A stretch of DNA of 56,049 nucleotides from Rickettsia typhi (GTDB lineage Bacteria > Pseudomonadota > Alphaproteobacteria > WRAU01 > Hepatincolaceae). Under the pieces are notes generated by a model that saw only the letters and a program-made list of their open reading frames with translations, had not been told where the DNA came from and did no database searches. This document shows, piece by piece, positions 1 to 39,282 of the stretch. A program made the position numbers and the translations under genes. Numbering within the stretch: position 1 is the first letter of the stretch; every line of letters begins with the position of its first letter. The stretch spans positions 1-56,049 of the forward strand of contig CAMCZU010000005.1 in the NCBI GenBank assembly GCA_945888065.1, given 5' to 3'.

Positions 1-1572
1 GTTGTGCCACTACCTGCAAAAAAATCTAGAATGATGTCATCTTTTAAACATACAGAATAAATAAAATGTTTAAGATATTCAACTGGCTTTGCATAATCAA
101 ATGGAATTTTAAGATTTTTTAAATCTTTATTACTATCATCATATTTAAAATCAGTTCTTTTAAGAACTGATACCAAAGAGCTATAGGCACTTTCTTCTTT
201 TTGATATTTTTTAGCTTTAGCAATAATTTCTCCTGATTTTTGTTTTTCAAATACAATTTCACCTGAATCTAATCTTTTTTGCATAGTGCTAGGTGAATTT
301 GAATACAAATAATCTCCTACATATTTTGTTTTATCTAGTGTTAATATTTCTTCTTTAGTTGCTTCCACTACTTTTAATGTTTCAGGATTAATAATATAAG
401 AATAGCTTAATTGTTTTTCGGTTTTTTTATCTAATCCTGTTAATCTATAATTACCTTTACTATCATTTAAGGGGTATTCCCTTAACATTTGTCTACCAAT
501 AAATGTGTAGTCATTAATATGAACATAATCTCTTAATATTTTTTTATAAATTGGCTTTATAGATGATTTATTTTTTCCGTAGCACAAAACATATTCGTGG
601 TCTGTAGATATTATATCAACATTAGGATTTCTACACTCCCACACTACATTTGCTACAAAATTATCTCTACCAAAAATTTCATCGCACAATATTTTTAAAT
701 TTGCTTGTTCTCTATCATCTATGCTTATAAAAATTACCCCATCTTCTTTCAATAAATTTCGTGCTAAGGTTAATCTTTTATACATAAAGGCTAACCAATT
801 TGAATGTATGTGGGAAGAATTGGTGCTTTGTGAATCTATAGTTTTACCATCTTCATTTAATATCCCTATGTCTTTGTTATGTTGCTTTGAATTACTTGCA
901 AATTTATCATCGTATATAAAATCACTACCTGTATTATATGGTGGATCTATATATATACATTTAATACTATTGAAAAGTGAGCTTTGTAATAATTTTAATG
1001 CTTGTTCGTTATCTGCACTAATTATTATATTTTCTGCATTATTAAAATTGTATGAGTTTTGTAGTTGTGGTTTAAAAACTTTATTTTCTATGGATTGTTT
1101 TAAGCTTTCTTTAGCTTGTTTTTTACCATAAAAATTAAGCTCGTAATATTCTTTTTGTGTATCTTGTAGGGTATTTTCATTGCCTAAAAATTCTTGAAGT
1201 TTTGTAAAATCTATTTTTTTGCTATCTACATTTATACTTTGGGGAATAATTTTTGCAACTTCATTTATAAAAAAATCTTGTAAAGAATCACTCTTTATAT
1301 TGGCAATTTTATAATCTACACTTAAATAATTTATAAATACATTTAGTTTAAATACATTTGTATTGTTTATTGTAGTAAAAAAATATTCTTTTAGTTGCTC
1401 TACATTATATAATAAATTTAGTAGTTGAGAGTCATAATTTTGTGCATCAAAAATAATTTTATTAATATTTAAATTATTAACTAAATGCTCCCCCCCCCCC
1501 ATTATTTGGGCTTGTGGAGTAATTTTTAGCTAATATATTATTTAAAATAGAAAAAATTGAATCTTTATACAA
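1..1572 (-). CDS. mod: Type III DNA methyltransferase (Mod), 3' end cut by window edge, phase-variable
   Basis: Translating the minus strand gives a beta-class DNA methyltransferase: the catalytic motif DPPYNTGSDF lies near base 947 and the SAM-binding motif LDFFAGSGTT runs off the window at base 1. This order and the size match type III Mod subunits, which methylate adenine and work with a Res helicase-nuclease; Res would lie to the left, outside the window. The best start is TTG at 1572 with a Shine-Dalgarno AGAGG five bases upstream. Reading from there, an 11-G tract (1490-1500) shifts frame and translation stops at 1477. With 10 G the frame joins the rest, giving an N-terminus ending NNGGGEHL, a pattern seen near the start of Mod proteins. 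With 11 G, an ATG at 1502 opens the downstream frame but has no ribosome site. The body is open from 1502 to the edge, so the gene looks switchable rather than dead. Confidence 0.85.
1490..1500 (-). repeat. Poly-G (11) phase-variation tract in mod
   Basis: Eleven consecutive C on the plus strand, read as G in the mod gene. It is by far the longest G/C homopolymer in an AT-rich window and sits about 24 codons into a coding region, where slippage by one base decides whether the TTG-initiated frame joins the methyltransferase body. This is the standard architecture of contingency loci. Confidence 0.85.
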
Positions 1573-1647
1573 AATAACCTCTATAAGTATATAAATATTA
1601 AAATATGATAATTATTATATTATTTATAAACAATTAAGCAATGATTA

Positions 1648-1679: not shown

Positions 1680-1757
<78 letters not shown>

Positions 1758-1856
1758 ATAAATATAATCTAAATTACAAAGACTATACAACTATAATAAA
1801 CTTTAATATTAAAAAGTCAAGTTTAATAATTTTTTATTTATGTAATTTTATTAAAT

Positions 1857-2099
1857 TTATATTTTTTTATTACTTAAATATTTATCATATATTTTATCTA
1901 TATCTAAAGAGTATTGAGTTTTCAACAAGTGTAGTTCTTTTAAAGTTAATGGCTTTCTACCATTTGAGGCTTCTTGCAAGTCTCTTAAATTCCAATTAAA
2001 TAAATTTGTTATATCTGCATTATTATCTAATTTAACAGATGTTTTTATTTCATTATACATAAATTTATTAAACTCTGTATCATCTAATTTTTTTACCAT
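1857..2099 (-). CDS. Small hypothetical protein, possible HTH fragment
   Basis: An 80-residue protein, start ATG 2099 with AGGA ten bases upstream. I do not recognise a named family. Residues about 44-73 (ASNGRKPLTLKELHLLKTQY and the following Ser-Leu-Asp-Ile-Asp) resemble the recognition-helix end and last two helices of Cro/CI-type (XRE) DNA-binding domains, but the first helices are not clear. It is acidic and basic mixed, with no signal peptide or membrane segment. It stands alone between tRNA-fMet and tRNA-Asn. The direct repeats just upstream (2146-2178) are what an autoregulating DNA-binding protein would need, which is the main reason to suspect a regulator. A non-regulatory helical protein remains possible. 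Confidence 0.5.
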   Translation of the reverse strand: MVKKLDDTEFNKFMYNEIKTSVKLDNNADITNLFNWNLRDLQEASNGRKPLTLKELHLLKTQYSLDIDKIYDKYLSNKKI

Positions 2100-2145
2100 T
2101 ATAAAATTTTCCTAGCTAAACTCAAAATTTAATTACTAAGATAAT

Positions 2146-2218
2146 AATACAACATAATTATCTTAAAATACAACATAAAATTTTAAAAAAAAATAAAAAC
2201 TACTCTTTAGGTTGTATT
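2146..2218 (-). promoter_or_regulatory. Putative operator: AATACAACATAA direct repeats 21 bp apart
   Basis: The 12-mer AATACAACATAA occurs at 2146-2157 and again at 2167-2178, exactly 21 bases apart, which is two turns of B-DNA. A partial inverted copy (AATACAAC read on the minus strand) lies at 2211-2218. The repeats are 47-79 bases upstream of the small protein starting at 2099. The spacing puts both sites on one face of the helix, as expected for cooperative repressor binding; function is inferred. Confidence 0.45.
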
Positions 2219-2276
2219 TAATTTTTATAAAAAACAAAATGCAAAAATGAAATTTTTAAAAATTGATTTTTTTTAA

Positions 2277-2352
2277 TGGCTCCGGCAGCAGGACTCGAAC
2301 CTGCGACATATGGATTAACAGTCCACCGTTCTACCAACTGAACTATGCCGGA
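2277..2352 (-). tRNA. tRNA-Asn (GTT), CCA encoded
   Basis: The minus strand gives a standard 76-base cloverleaf: acceptor TCCGGCA pairing with TGCCGGA, anticodon loop CTGTTAA, T-loop TTCGAGT and an encoded GCCA end. The anticodon GTT specifies asparagine. Confidence 0.97.
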
Positions 2353-2438
2353 ATGATGTTTTTTAACACAATTATTATTTATTTAGTATATATTATAAAA
2401 ATAAAAATGTCAATTAAAAAATTACCTACACTTTTATT

Positions 2439-2512
2439 TGGAGGTACGAACCGGATTTGAACCGGTGTACGCGGTTTTGCAGACCGCTACGTAACCACTC
2501 CGCCATCGTACC
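2439..2512 (-). tRNA. tRNA-Cys (GCA), CCA encoded
   Basis: The minus strand gives a 74-base cloverleaf: acceptor GGTACGA pairing with TCGTACC, anticodon loop CTGCAAA, T-loop TTCAAAT, discriminator T and encoded CCA. Anticodon GCA and a U73 discriminator identify cysteine. Confidence 0.97.
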
Positions 2513-6146: not shown

Positions 6147-7041
6147 TTAAAATTCTAGCTTTTATATTACCAATATATTTTAACAAAGGTAAAGCTATAC
6201 AAATAGAAGAATATGTTCCAAAAAAAACTCCTACTAACAAGGTAAAGCTAAAGCTTTTTAATACATTTCCACCTAAAATAAAAATACTTAACAAAACAAG
6301 CAAAACAGTTATAGAGGTAGCAATACTACGAGATAAAACCTGTGAAATGCTTGAATTTAAAATAAAATTAATATCTTTTTTTATATATTTTTTTGTATTT
6401 TCTCTAACCTGATCAAAAATAACAACAGTGTCATTAATAGAATAACCAATAATTGTTAACAATCCAGCAATTGTTGTAATATTAAATTCAAAATTAAAAA
6501 CTGATAAAAAAAATAAAGATACCACTACATCGTGAAGCAAAGTAAGCACTCCTATAGCGCCATACTGCCAATCAAACCTAAACCACAAATAAGCAAATAT
6601 ACCAACAAAAGATGCTATAATAGATATTATAGAGCTATATAAAAGCTGTTCACTAACTGAAGGTCCTATATACTGGCTTTGCAAATATATATAATCTTTG
6701 TTCATAAAATTTTTTATTGTAGTTATAGCATTATTAGTATTAACTTTAGAATCTAAAGAGATTATAATTTGTATAAAATCATTAGAAAATTCTTTAACAG
6801 AAAAATCTTTAATATTCAAATTTGTTAAATTATTTTTAATAAAGTCAATTTTATTTATATTTGATTCTTTTGACTTAAATTCTAATAATATTCCACCCTT
6901 AAAATCTATTCCAAAATTTAAACCTTTAAATATAATAAATAAGATAGAAGTAATAATAAGTAATGTAGATATAATAAAAAAAATCTTTGAATTTTTCATT
7001 AAATCTACATAAATATTGCTTTTTATAATTCCTAATTTCAT
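6133..7041 (-). CDS. secF: Protein translocase subunit SecF
   Basis: A 302-residue inner-membrane protein that with SecD uses the proton gradient to pull preproteins out through SecYEG. The SecD/SecF signature FGIDFKGGILLEF follows the first membrane helix (residues about 43-55), the periplasmic P1 domain follows, and then five more hydrophobic segments. The conserved motif GYSINDTVVIFDQVREN (about 198-214) carries the Asp used in proton movement. It starts on the last base of the secD stop codon (TAATG), so the two are translationally coupled, and it overlaps the Mth938-like gene downstream. Confidence 0.95.
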   Translation of the reverse strand: MKLGIIKSNIYVDLMKNSKIFFIISTLLIITSILFIIFKGLNFGIDFKGGILLEFKSKESNINKIDFIKNNLTNLNIKDFSVKEFSNDFIQIIISLDSKVNTNNAITTIKNFMNKDYIYLQSQYIGPSVSEQLLYSSIISIIASFVGIFAYLWFRFDWQYGAIGVLTLLHDVVVSLFFLSVFNFEFNITTIAGLLTIIGYSINDTVVIFDQVRENTKKYIKKDINFILNSSISQVLSRSIATSITVLLVLLSIFILGGNVLKSFSFTLLVGVFFGTYSSICIALPLLKYIGNIKARILNANK

Positions 7042-8567
7042 TACGCTTTCCTTATTTTTTTATGTTTTGAAAAGAAAAACATCACAACCAAAGACTTAGT
7101 AATAAACATAATAGAAAAAATAGAAGACAAAATACCTATAATTAATGTAATTGCAAAACCTCTTATTGGACCTGCTCCAAAATAAAACAAAAATAAAGCT
7201 ACAAATAATGTTGTAATATTAGAATCAAAAATTGTTAAAAATACTCTTTTAAAAGCATTAGTCATAGATAAAGAATAATTAGATGACTTAGCATTTAATG
7301 CCTCTTGATTAAACCTTTCGTATACTAAAATATTTGAATCTACAGCCATTCCTATGGTTAAAATAATACCTGCAATACCTGGTAGAGTTAGTGTTGCACC
7401 CAAAATAGACAACATAGCCAACATTAGAATAATATTAAAAATTAATGCTACATTGGCAAAAATACCTAGTTTTTTATAAAAGATAATCATAAAAAGAAAA
7501 ACAAAAATATATCCATATATACCAGCTAACAAGCCATCGTGAATTGAGTCTGAACCTAGTGTTGGACCTACGGTTTTTTCTTCTATAATACTCAGAGGTA
7601 TTGGTAAAGATCCAGATTTTAATAAAATTGCTAATTCTTGTGCTTCATTTAAAGTAAATCCACCACTAATAATACCACTACCACCTGTAATTGGAGTGTT
7701 TATTCTAGGAGCACTGATAATTTTATTATCTACAACAATAGCTAATAAGCCACCTACATTATTTGTTGTAAGCTCACTAAATTTTTTACCACCCTCTGTA
7801 TTAAAACTAAAAAATACTACGGGCTTGTTATCTTGAAATTCTAACTTAGCATTTGTTAAAGACTTTCCATAAATAGATGGTTCAATTTTAATTGCAATAG
7901 AGCTATCACTATCAACCATTTTTAAAAATTTATAACCAATTTTTAAAGGCTTGTTGTTAAAAGAAGATTCTGCATCAACCATATGAAAAGTTAGCCTAGC
8001 GGTTGTTCCCAAAAGCCTTTTTATTCTATCTGGATCTTCTATACCTGGTAATTCAACCAAAATTTTATTAACACCCTGCTTTTTTATTGTTGGCTCATTA
8101 GTTCCAATTTGATCTATACGATTCCTAATGATTTCTATAGAGTTGCTAATAATATTGTTTAATTGATTGTTATAACTTTTTGAAGATATTTCAACAATTA
8201 CTTGATTATTTTTTAAACTTACATCTAAATATTCATCATATTTTAAAATATCTAATTTTAATTTGTTATAATCTTGAGTATTAGAAATATTAAAATATAC
8301 TTTTAACCTATCTAATGAAAAATCAAAATAATTTATATTATTAGATTGCAAAATTGAAATTACAGAATCTGATAAGGATTTTGTATAATCTTGAACGTAT
8401 ACATCTTCATCTGCTTGTAAAACTAAATATGTTCCACCTTGTAAATCTAAACCTAACTTTAAGCCTTTTTGCAACTCAAAATTAGATATATCTTTAATTA
8501 ACACAAAAATAGCAACTATGATAATAAAAAAAGTTAAAAAAACTTTCCAACGAGGAAAATCAAACAT
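7041..8567 (-). CDS. secD: Protein translocase subunit SecD
   Basis: A 508-residue SecD: first membrane helix (residues 9-24), GLDLQGGTYLVLQAD (about 38-52), the large periplasmic P1 region with the head subdomain, then a five-helix membrane domain. LTIGMAVDSNILVYER (around residue 405) holds the conserved Asp of the proton pathway. The length is normal for alphaproteobacteria. It lies 23 bases downstream of yajC and is joined to secF by a shared stop/start. Together they complete late stages of protein export to the periplasm and outer membrane. Confidence 0.96.
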   Translation of the reverse strand: MFDFPRWKVFLTFFIIIVAIFVLIKDISNFELQKGLKLGLDLQGGTYLVLQADEDVYVQDYTKSLSDSVISILQSNNINYFDFSLDRLKVYFNISNTQDYNKLKLDILKYDEYLDVSLKNNQVIVEISSKSYNNQLNNIISNSIEIIRNRIDQIGTNEPTIKKQGVNKILVELPGIEDPDRIKRLLGTTARLTFHMVDAESSFNNKPLKIGYKFLKMVDSDSSIAIKIEPSIYGKSLTNAKLEFQDNKPVVFFSFNTEGGKKFSELTTNNVGGLLAIVVDNKIISAPRINTPITGGSGIISGGFTLNEAQELAILLKSGSLPIPLSIIEEKTVGPTLGSDSIHDGLLAGIYGYIFVFLFMIIFYKKLGIFANVALIFNIILMLAMLSILGATLTLPGIAGIILTIGMAVDSNILVYERFNQEALNAKSSNYSLSMTNAFKRVFLTIFDSNITTLFVALFLFYFGAGPIRGFAITLIIGILSSIFSIMFITKSLVVMFFFSKHKKIRKA

Positions 8568-14480: not shown

Positions 14481-15812
14481 TTATCTTTCTATAATTTCAA
14501 CAACTTCTCTACCACCAAATTTTTGTTCTTTTTTAATTATTATAGCACTTCTTATATTTTGTGATTTTATTACATCTTCTAAAAATTCTTCTCCAAAATA
14601 GGTAGTTTTTTTCATTCTTACATCTAATATTTTGTATGTAGTATTATTTTTTTTCTTGCTTGTAATGTATTCATCAAAATATCCTGCATAAATACCTAAA
14701 TTACTTTGATTATCAGCTCTCATTTTTACTAATCCTAAAGGACTTTGAAAAGTTGCATTTTGCAATTGTTGTGCTATTTTAATTCTATTTTCAACATCAT
14801 TGCTTGTGATATCAGCTTTTTTTATAGCATCTGCCATTAAATAAACACTTATGTAGCCTAAATAAGATGCAAATCGTGGCTTAAAATTATATTCTTTTTT
14901 GTATTTATTAATAAATTCTTTATTTGATTCACTATCAATTGCATACCAAGGGAATCCGCTAACATACCAATTTTTAGGGTTATCTTTTATTAATGCTTCA
15001 AACCACTCTGGTTCACCTATATATAACATATAGATATTTTTACCAATAGTAGACTTGTTATTTTGTAAATTAACTACTAATTTTTGTATGTCTTCATTAT
15101 CTATTGCTAAAATTATATTCTTTGAATAAGAATTATATATTGCTTCTGCTATATTTTTATTATCAACATCTGCTTTGTTTATTCTAATATCTGGAATAAT
15201 TTTTATATCTTTTCTTTTATTTAAAATAGTCTGTTTTACTAAATCTGAATAATAATCTCCCTGAGAATTAGTATAAGTAATAATATTTACATTTTTAATA
15301 CTAGAATCATCTATGATTTTTTGACTTAAGGCAATAATATGCATTGTATCTGAGGGTTTTAATTTAAAAACATAATTTGATGCTACATAACTATAAATTA
15401 AATCATTATGAGAAACACCTGTAGAGAAAAAAGGTATTTTATTATCATCAGCATACTTTGCTAAACCTAATGCAGGTTGCAATAAATAGGTTCCACTTAA
15501 AATTAATCCCCCCCTTTTTTTTACAGCTTTTTCTGCTACCATATATGCATCCATTTGATTACCATAATCATTTTCAATTACTAGCTTTATTGGTAATGAT
15601 AACACCCCTCCGCTTTTATTAATTTCTTTAATAGCTAAATACATTCCTGCATAGTAATGCTGTGTATATTCTTTTGATTTATCAATGCTATTAAAATCAA
15701 TAATTACTATTTCTTTTAATTTCATAACAGGTTTGCTTACTTTTTTAGAACAAGAAAATAAAAAAATCAAAACAAACAATACTAACCCATACAAAGCTGG
15801 TTTTTTTAACAT
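14481..15812 (-). CDS. Orphan branched-chain-amino-acid-type substrate-binding lipoprotein
   Basis: A 443-residue type 1 periplasmic binding protein (Peripla_BP_6, LivJ-like). A lipobox ends at Cys21 (IFLFSC), so the protein should be lipid-anchored. The fold signature is clear: AGMYLAIKEINKSGGV (about 62-77), KLVIENDYGNQMDA, LSGTYLLQPALGLAKYADD and the later FASYLGYISVYLMADAI. These proteins bind amino acids, amides or similar ligands. No permease or ATPase is nearby, so it is an orphan: it might pair with a distant transporter or act as a sensor or envelope factor. Around codons 92-97 the coding strand carries A8 followed by G7, a slippery run that could frameshift. Confidence 0.82.
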   Translation of the reverse strand: MLKKPALYGLVLFVLIFLFSCSKKVSKPVMKLKEIVIIDFNSIDKSKEYTQHYYAGMYLAIKEINKSGGVLSLPIKLVIENDYGNQMDAYMVAEKAVKKRGGLILSGTYLLQPALGLAKYADDNKIPFFSTGVSHNDLIYSYVASNYVFKLKPSDTMHIIALSQKIIDDSSIKNVNIITYTNSQGDYYSDLVKQTILNKRKDIKIIPDIRINKADVDNKNIAEAIYNSYSKNIILAIDNEDIQKLVVNLQNNKSTIGKNIYMLYIGEPEWFEALIKDNPKNWYVSGFPWYAIDSESNKEFINKYKKEYNFKPRFASYLGYISVYLMADAIKKADITSNDVENRIKIAQQLQNATFQSPLGLVKMRADNQSNLGIYAGYFDEYITSKKKNNTTYKILDVRMKKTTYFGEEFLEDVIKSQNIRSAIIIKKEQKFGGREVVEIIER

Positions 15813-37628: not shown

Positions 37629-38750
37629 ATGCTTAATAAAAAAATCATCAATAATAGCAATAAAACTGAATACCTTAATGGTATTAATGATACAATATCT
37701 ACATATAATTTATTTAAAGAATTAGTAGAAACTATAGGTATAAAAAAAATAATAGATAATTTATTTATACATAAGGGTACTACTACAAGATGGTTAGCAA
37801 ATAAAAAAGTTCCTGACAATTATTTTAATGATTTAAACAGGCTTTTAAACAACAAATACCCTAGCAAATATAGCTATAGAGATCAAGATCAATTTTATAC
37901 AAATACACATACTGCTAATTATTGTTATAACAAAACTTTAAGTGTATTAAAAGAACTCAATATTGATGACAAAGATTATACTTTTATTGAACCAAGTGCT
38001 GGATGTTGTAATTTTTATAATATCTTGCCAAAAAATAGAAGAATTGGAATTGATATAGAACCTAAGGGATTTTATAGTAATGAATTAATTAAAATAAATT
38101 ATTTAGATTATAAACCAAATGATGATAAAAAATATATTGTTATTGGGAATCCTCCTTTTGGATTAAGAGGAAATTTAGCTCTTCGTTTTATTAATCATTC
38201 TTATAATTTTGCAGATGTTGTAGCATTTATTTTGCCTCCTCTTTTTAATAGCACAGGTAAGGGAGTTCCTATGAAAAGAATTCAAGGATATAAATTAGCA
38301 TATTCTGAAAAATTACCTTTAAAATCTTTTGAATATCCAAATGGTATTGCTGTTGAAATTGCTACTATCTTTCAAATTTGGGTTAAAGTAAATACTCATC
38401 TTATTAATAATGAAGTGAAAAAAACTTGTAAAACTTTTATAAAAATATATTCCTTATCAGATGGTGGCACCCCAAGTAGTACAAGAAATAAAAAGATGTT
38501 AGAAAAGTGTGATGTTTATTTACCATCTACTTGCTTTAGTGGAATGAAAGCATATAAAACATTTAATGAATTACCCAATAAAAGAGGTTATGGAATTGTA
38601 TTTTTAAAACACAATAATGAATTACATAATCTTTGCTTTAATATTATTGATTGGTCAAAAATTGCATTTTTATCTACAAATAGTGCTGTAAATTTACGCA
38701 CTGATTTAATTGAAAATGCAATTATAAAATATGGATTTTATGATGAATAA
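37629..38750 (+). CDS. Type II adenine DNA methyltransferase with N-terminal HTH-like region
   Basis: A 373-residue gamma-order methyltransferase. The SAM motif is IEPSAGCCNFYNILP (about residues 123-137), followed by GIDIEPKG and the catalytic NPPFGLRGN (about 165-173), where NPPF indicates N6-adenine or N4-cytosine methylation. The last 200 residues should recognise DNA. Residues about 30-75 (GTTTRWLANKKVPDNYFNDL) look like a helix-turn-helix of the Cro/CI type, so the enzyme may also control its own operon. AAGGAT precedes the start. The stop overlaps the partner endonuclease start region, which couples translation. The recognition sequence cannot be told. Confidence 0.82.
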   Translation: MLNKKIINNSNKTEYLNGINDTISTYNLFKELVETIGIKKIIDNLFIHKGTTTRWLANKKVPDNYFNDLNRLLNNKYPSKYSYRDQDQFYTNTHTANYCYNKTLSVLKELNIDDKDYTFIEPSAGCCNFYNILPKNRRIGIDIEPKGFYSNELIKINYLDYKPNDDKKYIVIGNPPFGLRGNLALRFINHSYNFADVVAFILPPLFNSTGKGVPMKRIQGYKLAYSEKLPLKSFEYPNGIAVEIATIFQIWVKVNTHLINNEVKKTCKTFIKIYSLSDGGTPSSTRNKKMLEKCDVYLPSTCFSGMKAYKTFNELPNKRGYGIVFLKHNNELHNLCFNIIDWSKIAFLSTNSAVNLRTDLIENAIIKYGFYDE

Positions 38751-39282
38751 TGAAATAGATGATATTGCTATACCTATTTTAAATAAAGTATTGCAAGAAG
38801 CTCAAGATGAATGGCTTGATATAAATAGTAAATATAAAGCTTATAGGAATTTACAAATTGATAAAAGAGGTAGCTTTGGAGAAAGATTTTTTGCCCAAGT
38901 ATTATCTAGTTTATATTATAGAAGATTAAAAATTGAATACAAAGATGGAGACCAAGGAGATTGGGATTTAAAATTTAATGGAATAAAATTTGAAATTAAA
39001 ACATCTTCCATAGATGTTAATAAAAAATTTCAAAATGAAGGGATTAAAAAAGATGGTAATTATGATGGTATACTTTTTTTAGGAGTAAGCCCTAATAATT
39101 TATATATTAAATTTATTCTAAAAGAAAATATACCTTTTGATACTTTGCACGATAGAAAATCTAGAGGCACTGGTTCTGGATATAAGTGGGATTTTAAAGA
39201 AAAAGATATGATAAAAATTTTGCATCTTAATGATATAAAAAATGAGTTTGAAAAACATTTTGCTTTTATGATTAATAAATAA
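38731..39282 (+). CDS. Putative type II restriction endonuclease, PD-(D/E)XK fold
   Basis: A 183-residue protein whose start overlaps the methyltransferase gene by up to 20 bases (possible ATGs at 38731, 38740, 38743). The nuclease core is readable: SFGERFFAQVLSSLYY (about 48-63) gives the Glu helix, and GDWDLKFNGIKFEIKTSS (about 81-98) gives D-x(n)-E-x-K with the catalytic Lys. I do not recognise the family by name; identification rests on the catalytic pattern plus the overlap with a modification enzyme. Gln/Asp-rich and without membrane segments. Confidence 0.78.
   Translation: MDFMMNNEIDDIAIPILNKVLQEAQDEWLDINSKYKAYRNLQIDKRGSFGERFFAQVLSSLYYRRLKIEYKDGDQGDWDLKFNGIKFEIKTSSIDVNKKFQNEGIKKDGNYDGILFLGVSPNNLYIKFILKENIPFDTLHDRKSRGTGSGYKWDFKEKDMIKILHLNDIKNEFEKHFAFMINK

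Follow-up and report, generated by a model that had tools for sequence, protein, structure and literature searches.

Phasevarions are known mainly from vertebrate pathogens. The phasevarion mod genes described for Haemophilus, Neisseria, Helicobacter, Moraxella and Streptococcus suis encode type III Mod proteins and contain a frame-shifting simple repeat near the 5′ end. PMC7394358 gives a share of 17.4% for type III mod genes with simple repeats (SSRs). Poly-G tracts are also found in R-M genes of other types. The type IIG gene Cj0031 of Campylobacter jejuni, whose genome makes use of poly-G switches, contains a G9/G10 tract (PMC4889913), and in the type I system NgoAV of Neisseria gonorrhoeae a poly-G run in the specificity gene determines whether a full-length or a truncated subunit is made (PMC7394358; PMC9577141). 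The locus analyzed here lies at the end of a window of 56,049 nucleotides (the whole stretch of DNA under study). Judged from its sequence, it very probably comprises a phase-variable type III mod gene, in which slippage in a G tract would lead to a mixture of Mod-ON and Mod-OFF cells and which would belong to a set of poly-G-switched R-M systems.

In the window, a single G/C run of at least eight nucleotides was detected, a tract of 11 G on the minus strand (1500..1490). The second-longest run comprises 7 nucleotides (position 15508), and only 0.01 G8 matches are expected in the shuffled window. The predicted start codon of mod, TTG (1570..1572, minus strand), follows an AGAGG ribosome-binding site (1578..1582, minus strand) at a spacing of 5 nt. 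Codons 1 to 24 (1501..1572, minus strand) are located ahead of the tract, and the 24 residues encoded by them were aligned with helix 1 of other Mod proteins. To follow the frame beyond the tract, it was recomputed from TTG 1572 for tract lengths of 8 to 13 G. At 11 G, it comprises 31 codons and is closed by a TAA (1477..1479, minus strand). At 10 or 13 G, it is open up to the contig edge and joins a Mod body of 500 codons, whereas at 8, 9 and 12 G it halts within at most 30 codons. As assembled (11 G), mod is in its predicted OFF state, bearing in mind that a homopolymer length in a metagenome assembly may be wrong by one. These data bear out the preliminary description, which had noted the sole long G/C homopolymer of the window 24 codons into a frame starting at TTG 1572 with a good ribosome site, a frame end at 1477 for 11 G and a junction with the methyltransferase body at 10 or 13 G. 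An ATG overlapping the tract (1500..1502, minus strand), whose G is part of the tract, has the frame of the Mod body at 11 G. It is a possible weak alternative start from which an N-truncated Mod might be produced at this tract length, but the sequence ahead of it contains no ribosome site.

The Mod body (3..1502, minus strand) consists of 500 stop-free codons, and the contig ends directly after motif I (FFAGSGT). Its translation matched PF01555 (N6_N4_Mtase; E = 1.7e-30), the PADLOC model MTase_III for type III methyltransferases (1.8e-102) and two solved proteins, Mod 6k0w (3e-54) and EcoP15I Mod 4zcf (4e-45). IYIDPPYNTG and FFAGSGT represent the DPPY and FxGxG motifs, whose order is circularly permuted. 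The N-terminal domain TypeIII_RM_meth (PF12564; 1320..1433, minus strand) was recovered partially, with 24.6 bits (cut-off 25) or, as a genome match, 28.7 bits, covering only positions 1-38 of the 56 in the profile. Since an open frame of about 500 codons is improbable by chance (5e-20 at the given base composition), the gene does not appear to be decayed. Its codon-position composition is similar to that of neighbouring housekeeping genes. A frameshift or stop elsewhere in mod, which the preliminary description had named as speaking against a switch, did not emerge, as the 500 codons read contain no second lesion. Among 385 alphaproteobacterial genomes, PF12564 was found in one, the source genome itself, and in a sample of the phylum in three of 399. 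Due to this rarity of PF12564-detectable Mod proteins in the class and in the phylum sample, a horizontal origin of mod is likely. A search of genome contigs for related mod genes yielded only distant ones of Firmicutes, and a search of viral contigs gave just two matches, both distant.

The source genome (867,558 bases in 26 contigs, 86% complete) was inspected for further tracts. Over 867,020 bases with a G+C content of 25.4%, 132 G/C runs of length 5, 15 of length 6 and five of length 7 were counted, none of length 8 or 9, one of length 10 and two of length 11. Extrapolation from the shorter runs predicts 0.03-0.3 runs of at least 10, compared to three observed. All three runs of at least eight nucleotides are positioned in or just ahead of R-M genes, namely the window mod and genes on contigs C21 and C17. 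Other SSR classes are nearly absent. An ATAA x8 repeat directly ahead of the ATG of a cytidylyltransferase-like gene (C1:76165-76196; L076 16165-16196) is another possible SSR switch. The window also contains a type II R-M pair (37629-39282; PADLOC MTase_II 2e-50, REase_II 2e-6; no Pfam match) without a long tract, and therefore switching is not common to all R-M genes of this bacterium. MutS, which reduces slippage rates, was found in the source genome and in all three relatives discussed below (G001, G002 and G003).

The preliminary description had regarded a phase-variable mod gene as unexpected in an AT-rich alphaproteobacterium. For the tract alone this does not hold, since 201 of 289 alphaproteobacterial genomes possess tracts of at least 10 G; it is the link to R-M genes that is unusual. 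As a control, 40 tracts of at least 10 G from other alphaproteobacteria were chosen and ORFs of at least 120 codons touching them or lying up to 60 bases away (at most three per tract) were collected, 61 of which were scanned with PADLOC. These 61 ORFs gave no match to type I, II or III methyltransferases or specificity subunits at 1e-5; one ORF hit mad2, a model for a relative of methyltransferases. Thus, R-M-adjacent tracts amount to 3/3 in the source genome versus at most 1/40 in the control (Fisher P 3e-4 or less), which is a rough one, as its genomes were taken from the top of the list and many of these are rich in G+C.

On C21 (L002 6379-7049), a second mod-like gene, cut by the contig end, was identified (PF01555 4e-11; PADLOC MTase_III 8e-31). 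Its tract of 10 G (6658-6667) is situated inside the gene, just ahead of the DPPF motif. The frame is open at 10 and 13 G and is intact as assembled; hence, this gene is assembled in its predicted ON state. C17 harbors a BcgI-type R-M operon identified by PADLOC (L001 8125-11046). Its tract of 11 G (8161-8171) belongs to a leader ORF of 44 codons starting at ATG 8125. At 8, 11 and 14 G the leader comprises 43-45 codons and its TGA overlaps the ATG of the enzyme gene (ATGA), while other tract lengths lead to a stop within at most 18 codons. The enzyme is BcgI/type IIG-like (PADLOC REase_MTase_IIG 3e-111); its start at ATG 8256 is likely the true one because the alignment begins at residue 3. 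The next gene encodes a specificity subunit (2e-49). From this arrangement, the leader tract could switch the enzyme by translational coupling. The operon is located downstream of a tRNA-like sequence recognized by eye (L001 about 7420-7495), a possible island site.

Related genomes were compared. In G003, which belongs to another genus of the same family, the only G9 match of the genome is located 65 bases into its own mod gene. With 9 G the frame of this gene is closed; with 10 G it is open. When the N-termini of the two Mod proteins were aligned with those of two homologues that have no tract and were identified by means of PF12564, both tracts coincided with an extra loop of about 8-10 residues, which lies between N-terminal helices 1 and 2 (helices assigned by eye). 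The tract-free homologues do not have this loop. For this reason, the GGGEHL motif restored at 10 G, which had initially been taken for a typical Mod N-terminus, cannot be regarded as such. G001 (one contig, 1,340,442 bases) contains five tracts. A fused type I M-S protein (L055, C1, 627-3542) has two specificity domains, and one of the tracts, with 10 G, is positioned between them; at tract lengths other than 10 G the second specificity domain is lost. The other four tracts are outside predicted ORFs of at least 80 codons; thus, poly-G runs in the family also occur away from R-M genes. Of the four tracts of G002, none is at an R-M gene; they include those of an acyltransferase and a glycosyltransferase-like gene. 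These two (L061 and L063) have G9 in the acyltransferase gene and at the 5′ end of the glycosyltransferase-like gene, respectively, and resemble phase-variable surface loci. In a further genome (G024; L067-L069 and L071-L073), G9 runs on the opposite strand occur near the N-terminus of paralogous pilin-like ORFs (...ITVEVIVMLGLIAALTPILYKHV...). The sites often read CTAGCGGGGGGGGGTAGAGACTTTCATTTT, and phase variation or a conserved signal-peptide feature are both conceivable.

The preliminary description had suggested to extend the sequence to the left in order to find the end of mod and a res gene. This was not successful: contig C5 ends at window base 1, where the 3′ end of mod is cut off, and the left end of C5 has no 16-31-mer in common with any other contig of the assembly. 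No type III Res was found among the five ORFs read of six PF04851 helicase matches; the sixth (on C3) is below the cut-off and outside this set. By sequence, one of the five is UvrB-like, and the others are PriA-, DEAD-box-, DinG- and phage-type helicases. Type III Res requires Mod. If a Res is present, a Mod in the OFF state would therefore silence restriction, too; if it is absent, mod would be a stand-alone methylation switch. Both mod genes of the source genome and that of G003 run into contig ends, which may be caused by variation of mod genes within the populations. On the other side of the gene, three tRNA genes (Met, Asn, Cys; window 1680-2512) precede mod, and this could be an island site.

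It is unlikely that the OFF state is an artifact of assembly or base calling, with a true tract of 10 G and an intact, constantly expressed mod. Homopolymer lengths are error-prone, the assembly originates from uncultured material and is 86% complete, and two of the three tract genes are located at contig ends. However, a miscount by one base leaves unexplained why a genome with 25% GC has a run of at least 10 G at all, why all three runs are at R-M genes and why G003 has a tract at the same place. Moreover, a tract of 10 G is also prone to slippage. According to a second idea, the tract exists but exerts no control over the output, Mod being made from ATG 1502 at 11 G or by slippage of the ribosome or RNA polymerase. 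This ATG shares the frame of the body at 11 G, but it lacks a ribosome site while TTG 1572 is preceded by AGAGG, and the 24 residues upstream of the tract match the first helix of other Mods. At 10 G the ATG is out of frame, so that the tract would still matter. Such an uncontrolled output is quite improbable.

A third explanation, a pseudogene at the beginning of decay with the frameshift as its first fixed lesion, would be in line with the reduced genome, the OFF state and the Res not found in the assembly. It is very improbable in view of 500 codons free of other lesions, the housekeeping-like codon-position composition and the companion mod gene on C21 that is in frame.

The reading as a phase-variable type III mod gene, already put forward in the preliminary description, is supported by the identity of Mod, the frames, the position of all three tracts at R-M genes and the same-place tract of G003. 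In living cells, slipped-strand mispairing at replication would result in the gain or loss of one G. Translation initiated at TTG 1572 would enter the methyltransferase body with a tract of 10 or 13 G (ON) and would end within about 31 codons with one of 8, 9, 11 or 12 G (OFF). The C21 gene would be switched by the 10-G tract ahead of its catalytic motif, and translation of the C17 enzyme by a leader that reaches the start codon only at 8, 11 and 14 G, provided that both are coupled. The likely benefit would be a population mixed in methylation and restriction states, which might serve phage defence and possibly gene regulation through a putative regulon. Altogether, the data suggest that this bacterium randomly switches phage-defence and DNA-marking enzymes.

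The host probably represents a further genus of the Hepatincolaceae, a family of symbionts that live extracellularly in the gut of arthropods and other ecdysozoans. A wider proposal is tentative and has somewhat less than an even chance of being right: members of this probable family would have put R-M systems of several types under poly-G phase variation, with long G/C tracts restricted to R-M genes in a reduced genome, a loop common to the mod genes of two genera and one enzyme controlled via leader-ORF coupling. Since few other loci in the genome look switchable, a symbiont with a reduced genome, probably from the arthropod gut, would offer a simple test in nature of which function maintains such switching, phage defence or gene regulation. 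The locus is also a warning that tract-switched genes will be mistaken for broken ones when metagenomes are assembled.

In the literature consulted, no report on an SSR-switched mod gene in the host lineage was found, though a full REBASE survey may list an alphaproteobacterial example. A word search of the main texts of the reports on 'Candidatus Hepatincola porcellionum' (PMC9992710) and 'Candidatus Tardigradibacter' (PMC11724238) yielded no mention of restriction systems. The window Mod shares its catalytic family and motif order with EcoP15I Mod (4zcf) and Mod 6k0w. The phasevarion mods have in common with the window gene the type III Mod and the repeat near the 5′ end. What separates them is the host, here an alphaproteobacterial symbiont, the position of the tract in a loop after the first helix, and the putative nature of tract variation and of a regulon in the new system, for which no Res was found in the assembly. 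EcoP15I Mod and Mod 6k0w are not known to contain a G tract. Cj0031 is, unlike the window mod, an enzyme of another type, a fused R-M protein with a central tract. In class, it is more similar to the BcgI-type gene of C17, which has its tract in a leader ORF. The NgoAV arrangement resembles the fused M-S gene of G001 and is absent from the source genome. SSR-switched mod genes as such are already known; what is new is the host lineage, the occurrence of long G/C tracts at R-M genes only and the C17 arrangement with its leader ORF.
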